Shown piece by piece: positions 10,662-38,859 of a stretch of DNA of 39,825 bases. The number at the start of each line of letters is the position of its first letter. Position 1 is the first letter of the stretch. The position numbers and the translations under genes are program-made. The DNA is from Candidatus Parcubacteria bacterium (lineage in GTDB: Bacteria; Patescibacteriota; Saccharimonadia; UBA4664; JAHWKN01). The stretch is taken from positions 1-39,825 of the forward strand of contig JAHWKN010000005.1 in NCBI GenBank assembly GCA_019347875.1, written 5' to 3'. The notes beneath the pieces were generated by a model. That model was given only the letters and a program-made list of their open reading frames with translations. It had not been told where the DNA came from and ran no database searches.

Positions 10662-10795
10662 AGCTTTAGCATTATTCCTTGCCGTTTATTATAGCGGTTT
10701 GCGTCAACCGCGTCGAGCAGCTGCGCAGTCTGTTGGTGTCATGCCGAGAAAGAGGGCGGTTTGCTATACTGACCTATGATAAACAAGCATTTCCG

Positions 10796-11548
10796 GTGAA
10801 CTTTAAGCCGCCGCCAAGTTCTATCTTGAAGCTGCCTTTTGCAAGGCAAAACTATGACCTGACTGAGGGTTGGGTGTATTCTGCGGAAGAGACCTCTATT
10901 CACGGCATGATAAAACATCAAGCGGTTGACTTTGGCTTACCCATCGGCACGCCCGTTCTGGCGGCCACTGCAGGCTGGGCCGTAGCAAGTTACCAAGGTC
11001 TTTTTGCTTACAACCGTTCTTCGGCTAACCCTATAAAACGCTTATACAAAAACCAGCCTCTAATTACCGGTATGGGTCTTTTTGTGCAAATTTATCACCC
11101 CGAGAGTGCAACTTTCTCCCAGTATGGTCACCTCTCAAGGATTGTGCCTCGGATACCATTTAATCCACCCGCTGAGGAAAAGGGGGAGTGGTCTCCAAGC
11201 GGCTTTAGGTTGCCAGTAGCTGAATATGAGCAGAAAGGGTGCTGGGTGAATCAGGGGGACGAGATCGGTGAGGTTGGAGTAACGGGACTAACCCTTGGCC
11301 GTCCCGACTATCCCGATTGCCTGACGGTTGTGAGACGTGAATCGTGGGACGAGCCGCATCTGCACCTGTACGTTTTCAAGAGAACCCAAGATCAGGCGAG
11401 TTCCCAAAAGTTTGATCCTTATAACATCTACAGCGATTACCGCAGCTATCCCGATTCGGCTAAATCGTCCGACTTGTGGAGGCAGCGGCAATCGAACTCG
11501 CTTTGGAGTTTAAATACCGAAGGTATGCCCCGGTTTGCCAATGAATAG
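10796..11548 (+). CDS. M23-like (LytM-type) metallopeptidase family protein
   Basis: KHQAVDFGLPIGTPVLAATAGWAVAS (HxxxD-type) and PHLHLYVF (HxH); GTG 10796 chosen over the track start because candidate -10 boxes lie at 10765-10780. Confidence 0.7.
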   Translation: MNFKPPPSSILKLPFARQNYDLTEGWVYSAEETSIHGMIKHQAVDFGLPIGTPVLAATAGWAVASYQGLFAYNRSSANPIKRLYKNQPLITGMGLFVQIYHPESATFSQYGHLSRIVPRIPFNPPAEEKGEWSPSGFRLPVAEYEQKGCWVNQGDEIGEVGVTGLTLGRPDYPDCLTVVRRESWDEPHLHLYVFKRTQDQASSQKFDPYNIYSDYRSYPDSAKSSDLWRQRQSNSLWSLNTEGMPRFANE

Positions 11549-11589
11549 GCGACACTCCTGTCCGGATACCGCTATGGTATATTTGAGCC

Positions 11590-22345: not shown

Positions 22346-22491
22346 TTTTGGCGTGCGTTTGATTTGGAGCGGTTTAAAAAGACGATCGCCTCCGACAAGC
22401 AGTCGGGGACTCTCGTCGGAGGCGCGGTTCAGGTGGTTGGCTAGGCAGCGTCCTCTGGAGAGGGAAGGGGCTAGCGACTTCTCGGCTTGGT

Positions 22492-23214
22492 CTACCGCCG
22501 CCCGAGGAGGCCACTGTTGGCCAGAGCCTCCCAAAAGGCGGCTCGAACCGCACTGGCGCCCCAAGCGTTTGGTTCCACATCAAAGCAGTACCAAAGGTCG
22601 CGGTCGGGCCGGGGATCGGACTGGCTTGGGTCACCGGCCTTGGCTCCATGCCCTATAAAACGCGAGTGAATATCCGCCAGAGCGCAGTCGTAAACCCTTG
22701 CGACTTCGGCAATCTGCTGATTGCAGGCGGCTAGCGTCTCCAGCGCCTTGAGCCCGGTCGGCAGTTCTAAGATCGACAGATTGCCGGTGGCATCGCTGGG
22801 ATCATAGACGTTGGCCAGCGCAATAGCAGCCCAGGGAAACAGGCTGCGCAGCCGAGCTACTATCTGGTTGAGGTTACGCCGGATCTGCGTTACTGCCGGC
22901 TGGTACAACCCACTGCTAAAGGGTTGCAGTAAATCGTTGCCGCCGACGGTTAGGGTTACTACTGTCGCTTCGAGTTCTGTGGTTGCGAGCGGGGGTAGTT
23001 GCTGAGTCAGAACCGTTGCCGTAGTTGCACCGTCCTTGGCAAACGTTGCAGCTCTTATGCCCGGAACAGCCGTTACTAGATCACGGCCGGTCCAGTCCGG
23101 AAAACGGTCATCGCGATTTCGATGTAGTAAACTGGCTGCGCCGCAACCAGCTCCCCCCGCATACTCATCGATCGAAATCGAGTCGCCCAGCGCAACGTAA
23201 ATTTTCTTTGCCAT
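22492..23214 (-). CDS. SGNH/GDSL-family hydrolase
   Basis: VALGDSIS (block I), VTLTVGGNDLLQ (block III); no obvious signal peptide. Confidence 0.82.
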   Translation of the reverse strand: MAKKIYVALGDSISIDEYAGGAGCGAASLLHRNRDDRFPDWTGRDLVTAVPGIRAATFAKDGATTATVLTQQLPPLATTELEATVVTLTVGGNDLLQPFSSGLYQPAVTQIRRNLNQIVARLRSLFPWAAIALANVYDPSDATGNLSILELPTGLKALETLAACNQQIAEVARVYDCALADIHSRFIGHGAKAGDPSQSDPRPDRDLWYCFDVEPNAWGASAVRAAFWEALANSGLLGRR

Positions 23215-23428
23215 GTCGACCTCCCCTCGCCGGCAAGTTTGTTAAAGGACGGACAGTAAAAGCAGCCTCGCCACTCTCAAGTTTTGATCATAAACTCTTG
23301 GCAGCCAAAACAACAGCATAAGCGGGTGGTGGTTAGTTTCACCCTGATCGGTCTTTATCTCGTATACTACGACAACGTTTGGTCGAGTAAACTTCAAAGT
23401 GGGACACTAAAAAATCTGCTAAAAACTG

Positions 23429-23457
23429 TTGACAGGTTAGACAAGGGTAGTCAGAAT
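23429..23457 (+). promoter_or_regulatory. Candidate rpoB promoter TTGACA-17-CAGAAT
   Basis: -35 23429-23434, -10 23452-23457; about 170-nt leader to rpoB. Confidence 0.55.
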
Positions 23458-23634
23458 GGGGGTAATAGAGGACGCTTAAATAACCATAGCGGGGAGTCGC
23501 CGGCCCTTGTTTTGTGCGTTTAGAAAAGCCTCTTCAAACCAAACTTATAAACCATCAACCACATCGCCTGGCACGCGGTTAGTTTATTAATTGCTTAGAT
23601 TCCGGCAGTTGCCGGAATTAAGGAGGAGTGCATT

Positions 23635-32739: not shown

Positions 32740-33174
32740 ATGAAATTAACCGGGCTAGATCAATCAAGCTACATCATTCGGCTGGATCCGGGCGAGGAGA
32801 TTACGCCGTCGATTGAAGCTCTGTGCCGGCAGTACGCGATAACCAACGCCTCCATTTCAGGCATTGGCTCAGTGGAGAGTCCGACGCTGGCGCACTACCG
32901 GATGGATAAAAAGAAGTACCACCAGGAGCGGCTGGAGGGGGTTTTTGAGATCGCTTCACTCACCGGCAACGTGGCGCTGTTTGAGGGTAAGCCGCTGGTA
33001 CATCTGCACGCTGTGGTTTCCGATGAACAGATGCGTACTTTTGGTGGTCATCTGGTTAGCGGATCATGCTCGGCCGCCGTCGAGATAATCTTGCAAAAGT
33101 TTGATAGCAAGTACCAAAAGCACTTCGACGACCAGATCGGTTTAAAGGTTTGGGATCTGCCCGATAGTCAGTGA
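32740..33174 (+). CDS. PPC/DUF296-domain DNA-binding-type protein
   Basis: Full-length PPC fold pattern: LDPGEEITPSIEALCRQYAITNASISGIGSV... LTGNVAL...PLVHLHAVVSDEQMRTFGGHLVSG. Confidence 0.85.
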   Translation: MKLTGLDQSSYIIRLDPGEEITPSIEALCRQYAITNASISGIGSVESPTLAHYRMDKKKYHQERLEGVFEIASLTGNVALFEGKPLVHLHAVVSDEQMRTFGGHLVSGSCSAAVEIILQKFDSKYQKHFDDQIGLKVWDLPDSQ

Positions 33175-33506
33175 AAAAAGTAGTGGTAAGGTTTCGCGCT
33201 GCCGATAGACCCGTCTTTGATGCTATAAAAAACGGTGACAAAACCGTTGAGACCAGGGCGGCGACGCCTAGATACCGTGGCGTTCAAGTTAGCGATGTCT
33301 TGGTGATGCTGTGCGGGGCGGATAGACTGGAGAAGCGGGTTACTTCCGTTCATCATTTTAAGGACGTTAGCGCGTTGCTCGATGAGGTCGACTGGAGGAA
33401 GATCGCCCCGGAGGTCGGTTCAAGGGAGGCGATGCTGGCGAGCTACGAGCGTTGGTATGGCGGCAAAATCGACCAGCTTGGGCTAGTGGCGTTTGGACTA
33501 GCATAA
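33171..33506 (+). CDS. ASCH-domain-like protein (GTG start, GTGA overlap with the PPC gene)
   Basis: FDAIKNGDKTVETRAATPRYRGVQVSDVLVM ... YGGKIDQLGLVAFGLA. Confidence 0.7.
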   Translation: MKKVVVRFRAADRPVFDAIKNGDKTVETRAATPRYRGVQVSDVLVMLCGADRLEKRVTSVHHFKDVSALLDEVDWRKIAPEVGSREAMLASYERWYGGKIDQLGLVAFGLA

Positions 33507-34334: not shown

Positions 34335-36416
<2,082 letters not shown>

Positions 36417-36454
36417 GACGCTTCTTTCTTCGATACGACGCAGCACCCTTTTAG

Positions 36455-36483
36455 TTGCAAAAAAGCTGAAAGTATGTTATTTT
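36455..36483 (+). promoter_or_regulatory. Candidate promoter TTGCAA-17-TATTTT for the fusA-yggT intergenic RNA
   Basis: -35 36455-36460, -10 36478-36483, 17-nt spacer. Confidence 0.5.
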
Positions 36484-36489
36484 CAAATA

Positions 36490-37008
36490 GCTCTTCTTTA
36501 ACAACTTTCTTGGGTAGCGGCTCCTTCGGTTCATAAATGAACTCCGGGAGCCGCTACCTAAGGTAGCAACAGGCGTGCCGACACTCCGGGCAAAGTAGGC
36601 CGTTGTTTTTAAAGCTGCGTGCGAGTCGTTACTCAAGACGACTTAATCAGCGCCGGCCGAAGGACGGTAATTCCCCTCCAAGTCAGTTATGTTTTGCTGG
36701 CGTTTTGGAGGGCTCGGAGCTAGAGGCACACACGCGACGGAACCGGGGTCTGGGCGCCTTTCCAGGCCTGTCGATCGGTACCTCGTGTGCGACCCATCGA
36801 AAGGGCGCTTTCGATGACTTGGCGGTTGTGGCTCCCCTCGGATCCTGGTCAGATCATACACGAGAGGAATCGGTAGGGAGCCCTCAATTAAAGCGCAATG
36901 CTACGAGGTGGGTGCGGCGGCGCCGAACCGCTGCGCCCACACTCTCTTAGCCGCTACTAATTAGTTTTGGACTCTAGCCAACCAATCGGCTGGAGTCCTT
37001 TCTCTTTT
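36490..37008 (+). ncRNA. Candidate large structured noncoding RNA (unassigned family)
   Basis: Series of strong hairpins (GGTAGCGGCTCC/GGAGCCGCTACC, GCTACC/GGTAGC, AGTCGT/ACGACT, CCTCCAA/TTGGAGG, CATCGAAAG/CTTTCGATG, GGCTCCC..CGGATCCT/AGGAATCG..GGGAGCC, GTGGGTGCGGCGG/CCGCTGCGCCCAC) ending in an intrinsic terminator; no credible ORF. Confidence 0.6.
36969..37008 (+). terminator. Intrinsic terminator of the fusA-yggT intergenic RNA
   Basis: GGACTCTAGCC-aaccaatc-GGCTGGAGTCC-TTTCTCTTTT. Confidence 0.88.
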
Positions 37009-37099
37009 GACACTTCTACGAAGTTGAGCTGTAAGTTTGCACAATGATATTGGTCGCTAGGTTAGCCACAATAGATCTATTAATCAAAGGAGTTATATT

Positions 37100-37477
37100 A
37101 TGGCAAGAGTAGTTGAAGACAACGACACCAGGGCAGCGGACGGCGGCACTACCGTTGTTAATACCGGTGGGACAGCTCAGCCGGTGGCCGTAGATCGCGC
37201 CAGCCAGATCGTGTGGCTGATAGTTGGAGTCATTGAGACTCTGTTGGCGCTGCGGCTGATTTTGCGGCTGCTGGGGGCGTCGACCGCCAGCGCTTTCGTC
37301 CAGTTCATCTATGCTTTGTCGCGCCCGCTAGTCAGTCCGTTTTTCGGCATCTTTAACCTGCAGATCGAAAATGAACTGCCGGGGCTAGAGGTTGCCACGC
37401 TGTTTGCGATGCTGGTGTATGCGCTGGCCGGCTATTTGATTGTGGCGGCTATCAAGGCGGTCCGGGGACGGGCGTAG
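37100..37477 (+). CDS. YggT-family membrane protein
   Basis: IETLLALRLILRLLGASTASAFVQFIYALSRPLVSPFFGIF; SD AAAGGAG. Confidence 0.85.
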   Translation: MARVVEDNDTRAADGGTTVVNTGGTAQPVAVDRASQIVWLIVGVIETLLALRLILRLLGASTASAFVQFIYALSRPLVSPFFGIFNLQIENELPGLEVATLFAMLVYALAGYLIVAAIKAVRGRA

Positions 37478-37488
37478 GCGTAAAACTA

Positions 37489-37518
37489 TTTACAAACTCA
37501 GCGGCGTATCTCTATAAT
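37489..37518 (+). promoter_or_regulatory. tuf promoter TTTACA-18-TATAAT
   Basis: -35 37489-37494, -10 37513-37518. Confidence 0.75.
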
Positions 37519-37677
37519 AGCTAAAGTCCAAGCGGGCAGTTATTTTTATTGCCTGAAATTGATGATCACAAACGGTCAACGCGAACCGCCAGATTGGTCC
37601 GCCGTCCGGCGGAGAAACAGGTTGCAGTGGCGGCTTTTGCGCATCGCCCTGAGTTGACAGCAAGTAAAGGAGAACTA

Positions 37678-38859
37678 ATGGCTACAGAAACATACGCCCG
37701 TACCAAACCGCATTTAAACGTTGGTACGATTGGCCACGTCGATCACGGTAAAACCACCTTAACCGCCGCTATCACCACCGTTTTGGCTAAAAGCGGCCAG
37801 GCCAAAGCCACCTCGTATGCCCAGATCGACAACGCCCCCGAAGAACGCGAGCGGGGAATTACCATCGCCACCTCTCACCAGGAGTACGAAACCGACAAGC
37901 GGCACTACGCCCACGTCGACTGCCCGGGGCACGCCGACTACGTTAAGAACATGATCACCGGAGCCGCCCAGATGGACGCCGGTATTTTGGTGGTGTCGGC
38001 CGCCGACGGCCCGATGCCACAGACCCGCGAACACATCTTGCTGGCCCGCCAGGTTGGCGTGCCTTACCTGGTGGTCTACATGAACAAGATGGACATGGCC
38101 GATCCCGAGTTGGCTGAGCTGGTGGAGATCGAGATCCGCGAGCTGCTTGACAAGTACGAGTTCCCCGGCGACAAGACGCCGATCATTAAGGGCTCGGCGC
38201 TGAAGGCGCTAGAAGGCGACGCCGAGGCCGAAAAAAGCATTATGGAGTTGATGGAGGCGCTGGACACCTTCGTGCCCGAGCCTAAGCGCGACGTCGACAA
38301 GCCGTTTTTGATGCCGGTAGAGGACGTTTTTTCGATTAAGGGACGCGGTACCGTGGCTACCGGGCGGATTGAGCGCGGCAAAATTAACGTTAACGACGAG
38401 GTCGAGATCGTCGGTATCCGCCCAACCAAGAAAACGGTGGTCACCGGCGTAGAGATGTTTAAAAAGCTGCTGCCGGACGCTCAGGCCGGCGACAACGTCG
38501 GGGCGCTCTTGCGCGGCGTTGAGCGTGACGACATTGAGCGCGGCCAGGTGTTGGCCAAACCGGGGTCGATCACCCCGCACACCGACTTCGAGGCCCAGGT
38601 GTATGTCTTGAAGAAAGAGGAGGGCGGCCGTCACACCCCGTTCTTTAAAGGCTACAAGCCGCAGTTTTACATCCGTACCACCGATGTCACCGGTGCGGTC
38701 ATCATTCCGGAAGGTACCGAGATGGTCATGCCCGGCGATGACATCGCTATCAAGGTTGAGCTGATCGCCCCTATCGCCATGGAGGAGGGCCTGCGCTTCG
38801 CAATCCGCGAGGGCGGCCGGACCGTCGGAGCCGGGGTTGTAACCAAGATCCTTAAATAG
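37678..38859 (+). CDS. tuf: Elongation factor Tu (start ATG 37678, not TTG 37549)
   Basis: [55 protein letters not shown]. Confidence 0.98.

Follow-up and report, generated by a model that had tools for sequence, protein, structure and literature searches.

Large, ornate bacterial RNAs are described as forming homo-oligomeric or ribonucleoprotein complexes (PMC12286853, PMC9723947), and for OLE, good conservation from species to species has been described (PMC12054373). OLE, ROOL and GOLLD are non-coding, densely structured RNAs of 0.5-0.8 kb that form separate transcription units and whose function is unsettled. The region between fusA and yggT studied here, which we call the fusA RNA, shares this profile, its separate transcription being predicted.

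The window, that is, the whole stretch of DNA analyzed (39,825 nt), is contig C36 of a 789-kb assembly (40 contigs, 85% complete), whose host, judging from genome sizes in its class, we infer to be a reduced-genome bacterium. The fusA RNA is represented by this one genome, and the order by 11 genomes (this one and ten relatives). The region is part of a translation-factor cluster with the order rpsG, fusA, candidate region, YGGT-like gene, tuf, rpsJ. Upstream lies fusA (34335-36416, plus strand), an ORF of 693 aa for EF-G, the C-terminal part of which is 80-87% identical to relatives in the order. Downstream lies the gene of a YGGT-like membrane protein of 125 aa (37100-37477, plus strand; PF02325 with an E value of 9e-5, below the gathering score). 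Gene names without a Pfam or tblastn result are our own reading of the sequence, and we wrote the scripts used for gene calling and fold ranking. Elsewhere in the window, the interval from rpsG to fusA contains two overlapping genes, one with a PCC and the other with an ASCH domain (32740-33506); a homologue of this ASCH gene is found near tuf-rpsJ in the relative G003. Two other long intervals, 22346-23634 (1.3 kb) and 10665-11589 (0.9 kb), had no gene called.

A sequence-only reading had proposed a large structured RNA at 36490-37008 on the plus strand; the 5' end of this unit is uncertain. Its statement that the region contains no credible ORF was borne out: the longest ORF candidates (115 aa on the plus strand, starting from TTG, and 72 aa on the minus strand) had no Pfam match, and a codon-usage gene caller trained on this genome left 36417-37099 empty. 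Folding of the plus strand at 36500-37005 gave a minimum free energy (MFE) of -244.6 kcal/mol and a z-score of -8.3, with 0 of 100 dinucleotide shuffles as good. The minus strand folded less exceptionally (z -4.6). For the fusA-yggT region, an independent shuffle run returned z -10.1 (+) and -6.3 (-), and a further strand comparison -8.8 (+) versus -4.8 (-). The core without the 5' hairpin and the terminator (36563-36960) reached -6.2 on the plus and -2.0 on the minus strand. Background tiles of the window lay around 0, with an extreme of -3.7. Mean pair probability (P) over the fold was 0.91, and most helices exceeded 0.9. The MFE fold, the z-scores and the pair probabilities all agree with the earlier count of at least seven strong hairpins.

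From its 5' side, the plus-strand fold contains hairpin H1 (36509-36562; inverted repeat I1), a nearly perfect palindrome with a 17-bp stem and a 6-bp apical stem (mean P 0.99 and 0.94). In the MFE structure, H1 is followed by a multibranched core (36563-36957) closed by GTAGC (36563-36567) and GCTAC (36953-36957), a helix with a mean P of just 0.54. The core comprises a subdomain at 36575-36729, closed by GTGCC/GGCAC and CTCCGGGC/GCTCGGAG and bearing arms at 36599-36668 and 36675-36711 (mean P 0.92-1.00); a long arm at 36731-36789 (36731-36754/36761-36789; mean P 0.99/0.92); a perfect 9-bp hairpin, CATCGAAAG-GGCG-CTTTCGATG (36795-36816; mean P 1.00; inverted repeat I8); an arm formed by GGCTCCC/GGGAGCC with an inner helix of 7 bp (36830-36882; mean P 0.99/0.83); and a GC-rich arm of 16 bp (36905-36944; mean P 0.99). 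Inverted-repeat analysis showed that AGCCGCTAC at 36949-36957 repeats the 3' arm of H1 (36549-36557) and can pair with the 5' arm of H1 (36514-36522) in a perfect 9-bp helix. This pairing is a possible alternative end-to-end helix, which might have a functional role.

At 36969-37008 on the plus strand, an 11-bp stem (36969-36998, TTTCTCTTTT; mean P 1.00) is followed by a T-rich tail; the intrinsic terminator that had been called clean is sound. The promoter ascribed to the RNA did not hold up. TTGCAA-17-TATTTT (36455-36483, plus strand) is a weak promoter-like site matching 8 of 12 consensus bases, a score that shuffling of the upstream 90 nt equalled in 73% of cases and that is thus no better than chance; the site is also absent from our promoter-scanner list, which had a cut-off of 9/12. 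Consequently, the start site of this copy rests on analogy with relatives and not on its own sequence. Further downstream, tuf has the promoter TTTACA-18-TATAAT (37489-37518, plus strand; 11/12), which was aligned in five genomes. At 37489-37690 of the window and upstream of tuf at L086, L087, L089 and L092, both the promoter (TTTACA..TATAAT) and the leader are conserved; an inverted repeat of this leader, TTTCATTGCAGATCGCTGA...AATCTGAAATGAAA, is kept in relatives and weaker in this genome.

The gap between fusA and tuf is a variable site within the order. In many members of the class, tuf directly follows fusA, at a distance of 0.1-0.2 kb; in G001, the gap of 0.2 kb contains the tuf leader only, and in G003, G008 and G010 it is occupied by protein genes. 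Two relatives, each of another genus, carry an ORF-less unit at this position: 608 nt in G007 (z -11.1, promoter TTGACA-17-TATTAT, terminator) and 830 nt in G005 (z -11.8, promoter TTGACA-17-TATAAT, terminator), the promoters and terminators being read from the sequence by inspection. In all three fusA-tuf units, the z-score against shuffles was better on the fusA-tuf strand. In five genomes, a promoter and a leader belonging to tuf itself are present downstream, so these units are distinct from the tuf leader. The fusA-tuf stretch of G005 and G007 contained no yggT match, and yggT-like genes elsewhere in the order are at other loci, where fusA is not a neighbor.

Pairwise scores among the three units equalled those of shuffles, with no shared sequence beyond chance, and searches of the class with the G007 and G005 units returned the units themselves plus short matches only. 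By blastn, the fusA RNA matched nothing but the window in 61 genomes including the relatives, and had no homologue among 384 genomes from the phylum; searches of relatives, phylum, phages, plasmids and E. coli gave only matches of 20-30 nt, and the two that were inspected were both within protein genes. A covariance model built on the single sequence of the 398-nt core found only itself in 196 class genomes plus selected loci. The fusA RNA is single copy in its own genome, its own palindrome aside. No viral contig with a fusA-RNA 28-mer was found, and a GTDB contig scan via yggT yielded only unrelated Chloroflexi, Nocardioides and one other bacterium. In a control, single-sequence comparison across the order linked RNase P RNAs, tmRNAs and copies of the trpS RNA (see below) with E values no worse than 1e-22, 1e-10 and 1e-5, respectively, indicating that conservation of the fusA RNA is below that of all three. 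Thus, conservation in relatives, whose lack was to count against the proposed RNA, was absent at the sequence level in blastn, covariance-model and pairwise comparisons. Despite this, the proposal survives, because structured units recur in position between fusA and tuf.

We ran cmscan against all 4227 Rfam families, at the gathering threshold and at E<=10. No family fitted the fusA-yggT region at the gathering threshold, and at the lax threshold the sole match was a spurious microRNA-precursor hit on the long hairpin. If the fusA RNA is real, Rfam would miss it because sequence conservation is absent. The covariance models of OLE, ROOL, GOLLD and raiA gave no score for the region, and neither did RNase P, whose P4 core motif GAAAGTCC is missing from the sequence; this motif is present in the RNase P RNA of all seven relatives checked. 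Tests for tRNA-like ends with CCA, for an Rfam tmRNA score and for an ARAGORN call were likewise negative. In this assembly, RNase P RNA is not recognizable and there is no confident tmRNA. Conventional type A RNase P RNA and tmRNA are present in nine of the ten relatives, and in six of them the two genes are ~12-16 kb apart on the same contig. A block of ~35 kb carries both genes in G001 (C2:160800-197000), and nearly all of it lacks an equivalent in this assembly. Because the relatives are conventional and this block is lacking, the two genes are most likely missing from the assembly and not replaced, and an RNase P or tmRNA identity of the region is refuted as far as sequence allows. Segments CCTAAGGTAGC and ACGAGAGGA, which by eye we took to resemble conserved 23S rRNA segments, were dropped as matches of chance length; a search of the genome itself gave no other hit. 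The sequence-only reading had left it between an undescribed and a highly divergent RNA: the former is favored by the negative Rfam result, the fold, the plus-strand bias and the analogues, whereas a divergent known RNA is disfavored by the conventional relatives.

Fold scores, corrected for dinucleotide content, were computed for the whole genome and for 400 kb each of G005, G001 and an outgroup. By mean fold score, the fusA-yggT interval ranked 3rd among the 194 intergenic strands of the genome; among intergenic regions with at least three scored windows, the top three were rnc-smc, fusA-yggT and the trpS-pheS RNA. The fusA-tuf interval of G005 ranked 4th of 178 (first when only intervals with at least three windows are counted), and its unit had the best fold score of all 500-nt stretches in the 400 kb scanned. 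From the ranks, we estimate that, with random placement of such regions, both would fall at fusA-tuf with a probability of roughly 1e-3, which is a rough guide, as the sister units were noticed through the locus. Relative to shuffles, the fusA RNA was at least as stable as most RNase P RNA and tmRNA copies of the order.

Other structured regions were also seen. L126:10283-11217 (contig C13) is an ORF-less stretch of 0.9 kb from an RNase III-like to an SMC-like gene, with z -8.7/-10.9, a promoter (TTGACA-18-TATAAT) noted by eye and the top fold score of the longer intergenic regions of this genome; it had no match among the other candidate RNAs. L118:12058-12931 (contig C5) is an ORF-less, hairpin-packed stretch of 0.8 kb; it has a terminator, and its two strands fold equally well (z -10.2/-10.8). 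L176:2283-3038 (contig C3) contains a tRNA gene; the ORF-less region in which it is embedded is long, rich in hairpins and carries direct repeats internally. In G001, an ORF-less unit of ~0.65 kb near tmRNA (L208:17483-18260, minus strand; z -12.3; no Rfam match) is the most structured stretch of the 390 kb scanned.

The same ranking independently surfaced the covarying trpS-pheS RNA, in this genome and in G001, which shows that real RNA genes of these genomes can be detected in this way. This RNA is at L187:14305-14997 (plus strand), and by pattern and synteny the same family is found in L215-L218 (G000, G001, G007 and G006). It is order-specific, ~430-500 nt long and located between trpS and a 123-aa membrane-protein gene/pheS. 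Its 5' hairpin has 27 pairs, six of which are changed on both sides, and an invariant loop, TATCCCCCTT; downstream follow a variable middle, a conserved 3' domain (TACTNACGGGGCGAC...CGCCCC) and a terminator. The compensatory changes show that the trpS-pheS RNA, which is absent from Rfam, is a real, new RNA family. Model R2, built on the 5' hairpin with the loop TATCCCCCTT, had no match in the window at E<=10, ruling out the fusA RNA as a family member. Viral contigs contained 26 matches to the trpS loop, 0 of which scored with R2. Among eight candidate RNAs, no motifs were shared save by the trpS pair.

The fusA RNA is probably a real, undescribed and fast-changing RNA. We lean, at slightly better than even confidence, toward a stand-alone, large (~0.5 kb) structured RNA that acts in trans and is lineage-specific. 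We count as established the lack of an ORF, the exceptional, strand-biased folding, the terminator and the structured units at the locus in two other genera. The z-scores (-8.3/-8.8 on the plus versus -4.6/-4.8 on the minus strand), the rank of 3/194 and the G007 and G005 analogues with their near-consensus promoters, terminators and extreme z-scores argue for this reading. Against it stand the lack of a homologue in any search, the shuffle-like pairwise scores, the nonsignificant promoter, the absence of such a unit at fusA-tuf in G001, G003, G008 and G010, and the equal folding on both strands of other hairpin-rich regions in this genome (L126, L118). The RNA gene would be read from the plus strand into a discrete transcript ended by its own intrinsic terminator, and the RNA ends would fold back on each other around the multibranched core (H1, then 36563-36957, then the terminator), an arrangement also seen in RNAs that function as independent bodies (RNase P RNA, tmRNA, OLE/ROOL-like RNAs). 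The product may act in trans, either as a folded RNA or as a scaffold of RNA and protein, and could be one of a loosely defined group of large structured RNAs that evolve fast and are kept between translation genes of the order (fusA-tuf, trpS-pheS). A translation-related function is suggested only by location. That fusA-tuf is a dedicated site of a translation-linked RNA machine, whose structure is selected while sequence turnover hides homologues in sister genera, so that fold and synteny alone would reveal it, seems rather unlikely to us.

The missing promoter and the close terminator, ~90 nt upstream of yggT, keep in play a cis-acting yggT leader, transcribed by read-through from fusA or from the weak promoter. 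The terminator at 36969-37008 would then be an attenuator, and yggT transcription would be decided by a switch in pairing, either between the H1 5' arm and the 3' end or between the core and the terminator arm; the perfect 9-bp helix of the H1 5' arm and the 3' end is switch-like. However, in G005 and G007 the unit has its own near-consensus promoter and the fusA-tuf stretch contained no match to yggT, the downstream tuf has its own promoter, yggT-like genes elsewhere in the order lack a fusA neighbor, and no strong anti-terminator partner was found, making a leader unlikely. We consider it similarly improbable that the hairpins matter at the DNA level, as a palindrome-rich spacer or the remnant of a hairpin-type mobile element without an RNA function. 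This explanation stays in play because other hairpin-rich spacers fold equally on both strands: the genome has several other ORF-less, hairpin-rich regions, two of them with such folding. In its favor, H1 comes close to being a perfect palindrome, folding of the minus strand likewise exceeds chance expectation, and sequence conservation was not found. It is opposed by the strand asymmetry, with an excess of GU pairs on the plus strand here (23 versus 11) and on the corresponding strand of the G007 unit (27 versus 9) and with z -11.8 versus -8.0 in G005, by the single copy, the defined terminator and the recurrence of structured units at the locus, and by multibranched, long-range helices in place of a row of palindromes. 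A neutral spacer that folds by chance, or an assembly artefact, would agree with the lack of homologues, but is very improbable given z-scores of -8 to -10, the rank of 3/194 and the recurrence of top-ranked structured units at this locus in two further genera. Least probable is a divergent or hidden known RNA (RNase P, tmRNA, SRP, 6S, group I/II intron, OLE/ROOL/GOLLD/raiA): the size of the region suits several families and the assembly is without RNase P RNA or a confident tmRNA, but Rfam was negative even at the lax threshold, the RNase P core motif GAAAGTCC is not in the region, and nine of ten relatives are conventional, the RNase P/tmRNA block of G001 being almost entirely missing from this assembly.

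Compared with known systems, the stand-alone fusA RNA that we favor differs from OLE, as the latter is portrayed in the report cited above, in that its conservation was undetected even within its order. It also differs from OLE, ROOL and GOLLD in being without Rfam similarity, and neither a phage carrier nor a protein partner is known for it. It resembles RNase P RNA (RF00010) and tmRNA (RF00023) in size, folding stability and the pairing of 5' and 3' ends around a multibranched body; unlike them, it has no core motifs and no Rfam score, and the genuine genes are at another locus in nine of ten relatives. With leader attenuators of translation-gene operons, it shares a structured region with a terminator upstream of a gene. 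In contrast to such leaders, which are usually far shorter than the fusA RNA, each of the relatives' units carries a promoter of its own, and the tuf gene behind it is promoted independently. If real, it would be an undescribed half-kilobase RNA beside the elongation-factor genes of a reduced-genome bacterium, and fold score combined with synteny can find large RNAs where covariation searches fail. The fusA RNA is also like the trpS-pheS RNA, which comes from the same genome, belongs to the same size class, lies between translation genes, ends with a terminator and has a comparable fold rank. Unlike the fusA RNA, the trpS-pheS RNA has conserved anchors (TATCCCCCTT; TACTNACGGGGCGAC) and covariation across four genomes, and represents a directly testable new family.
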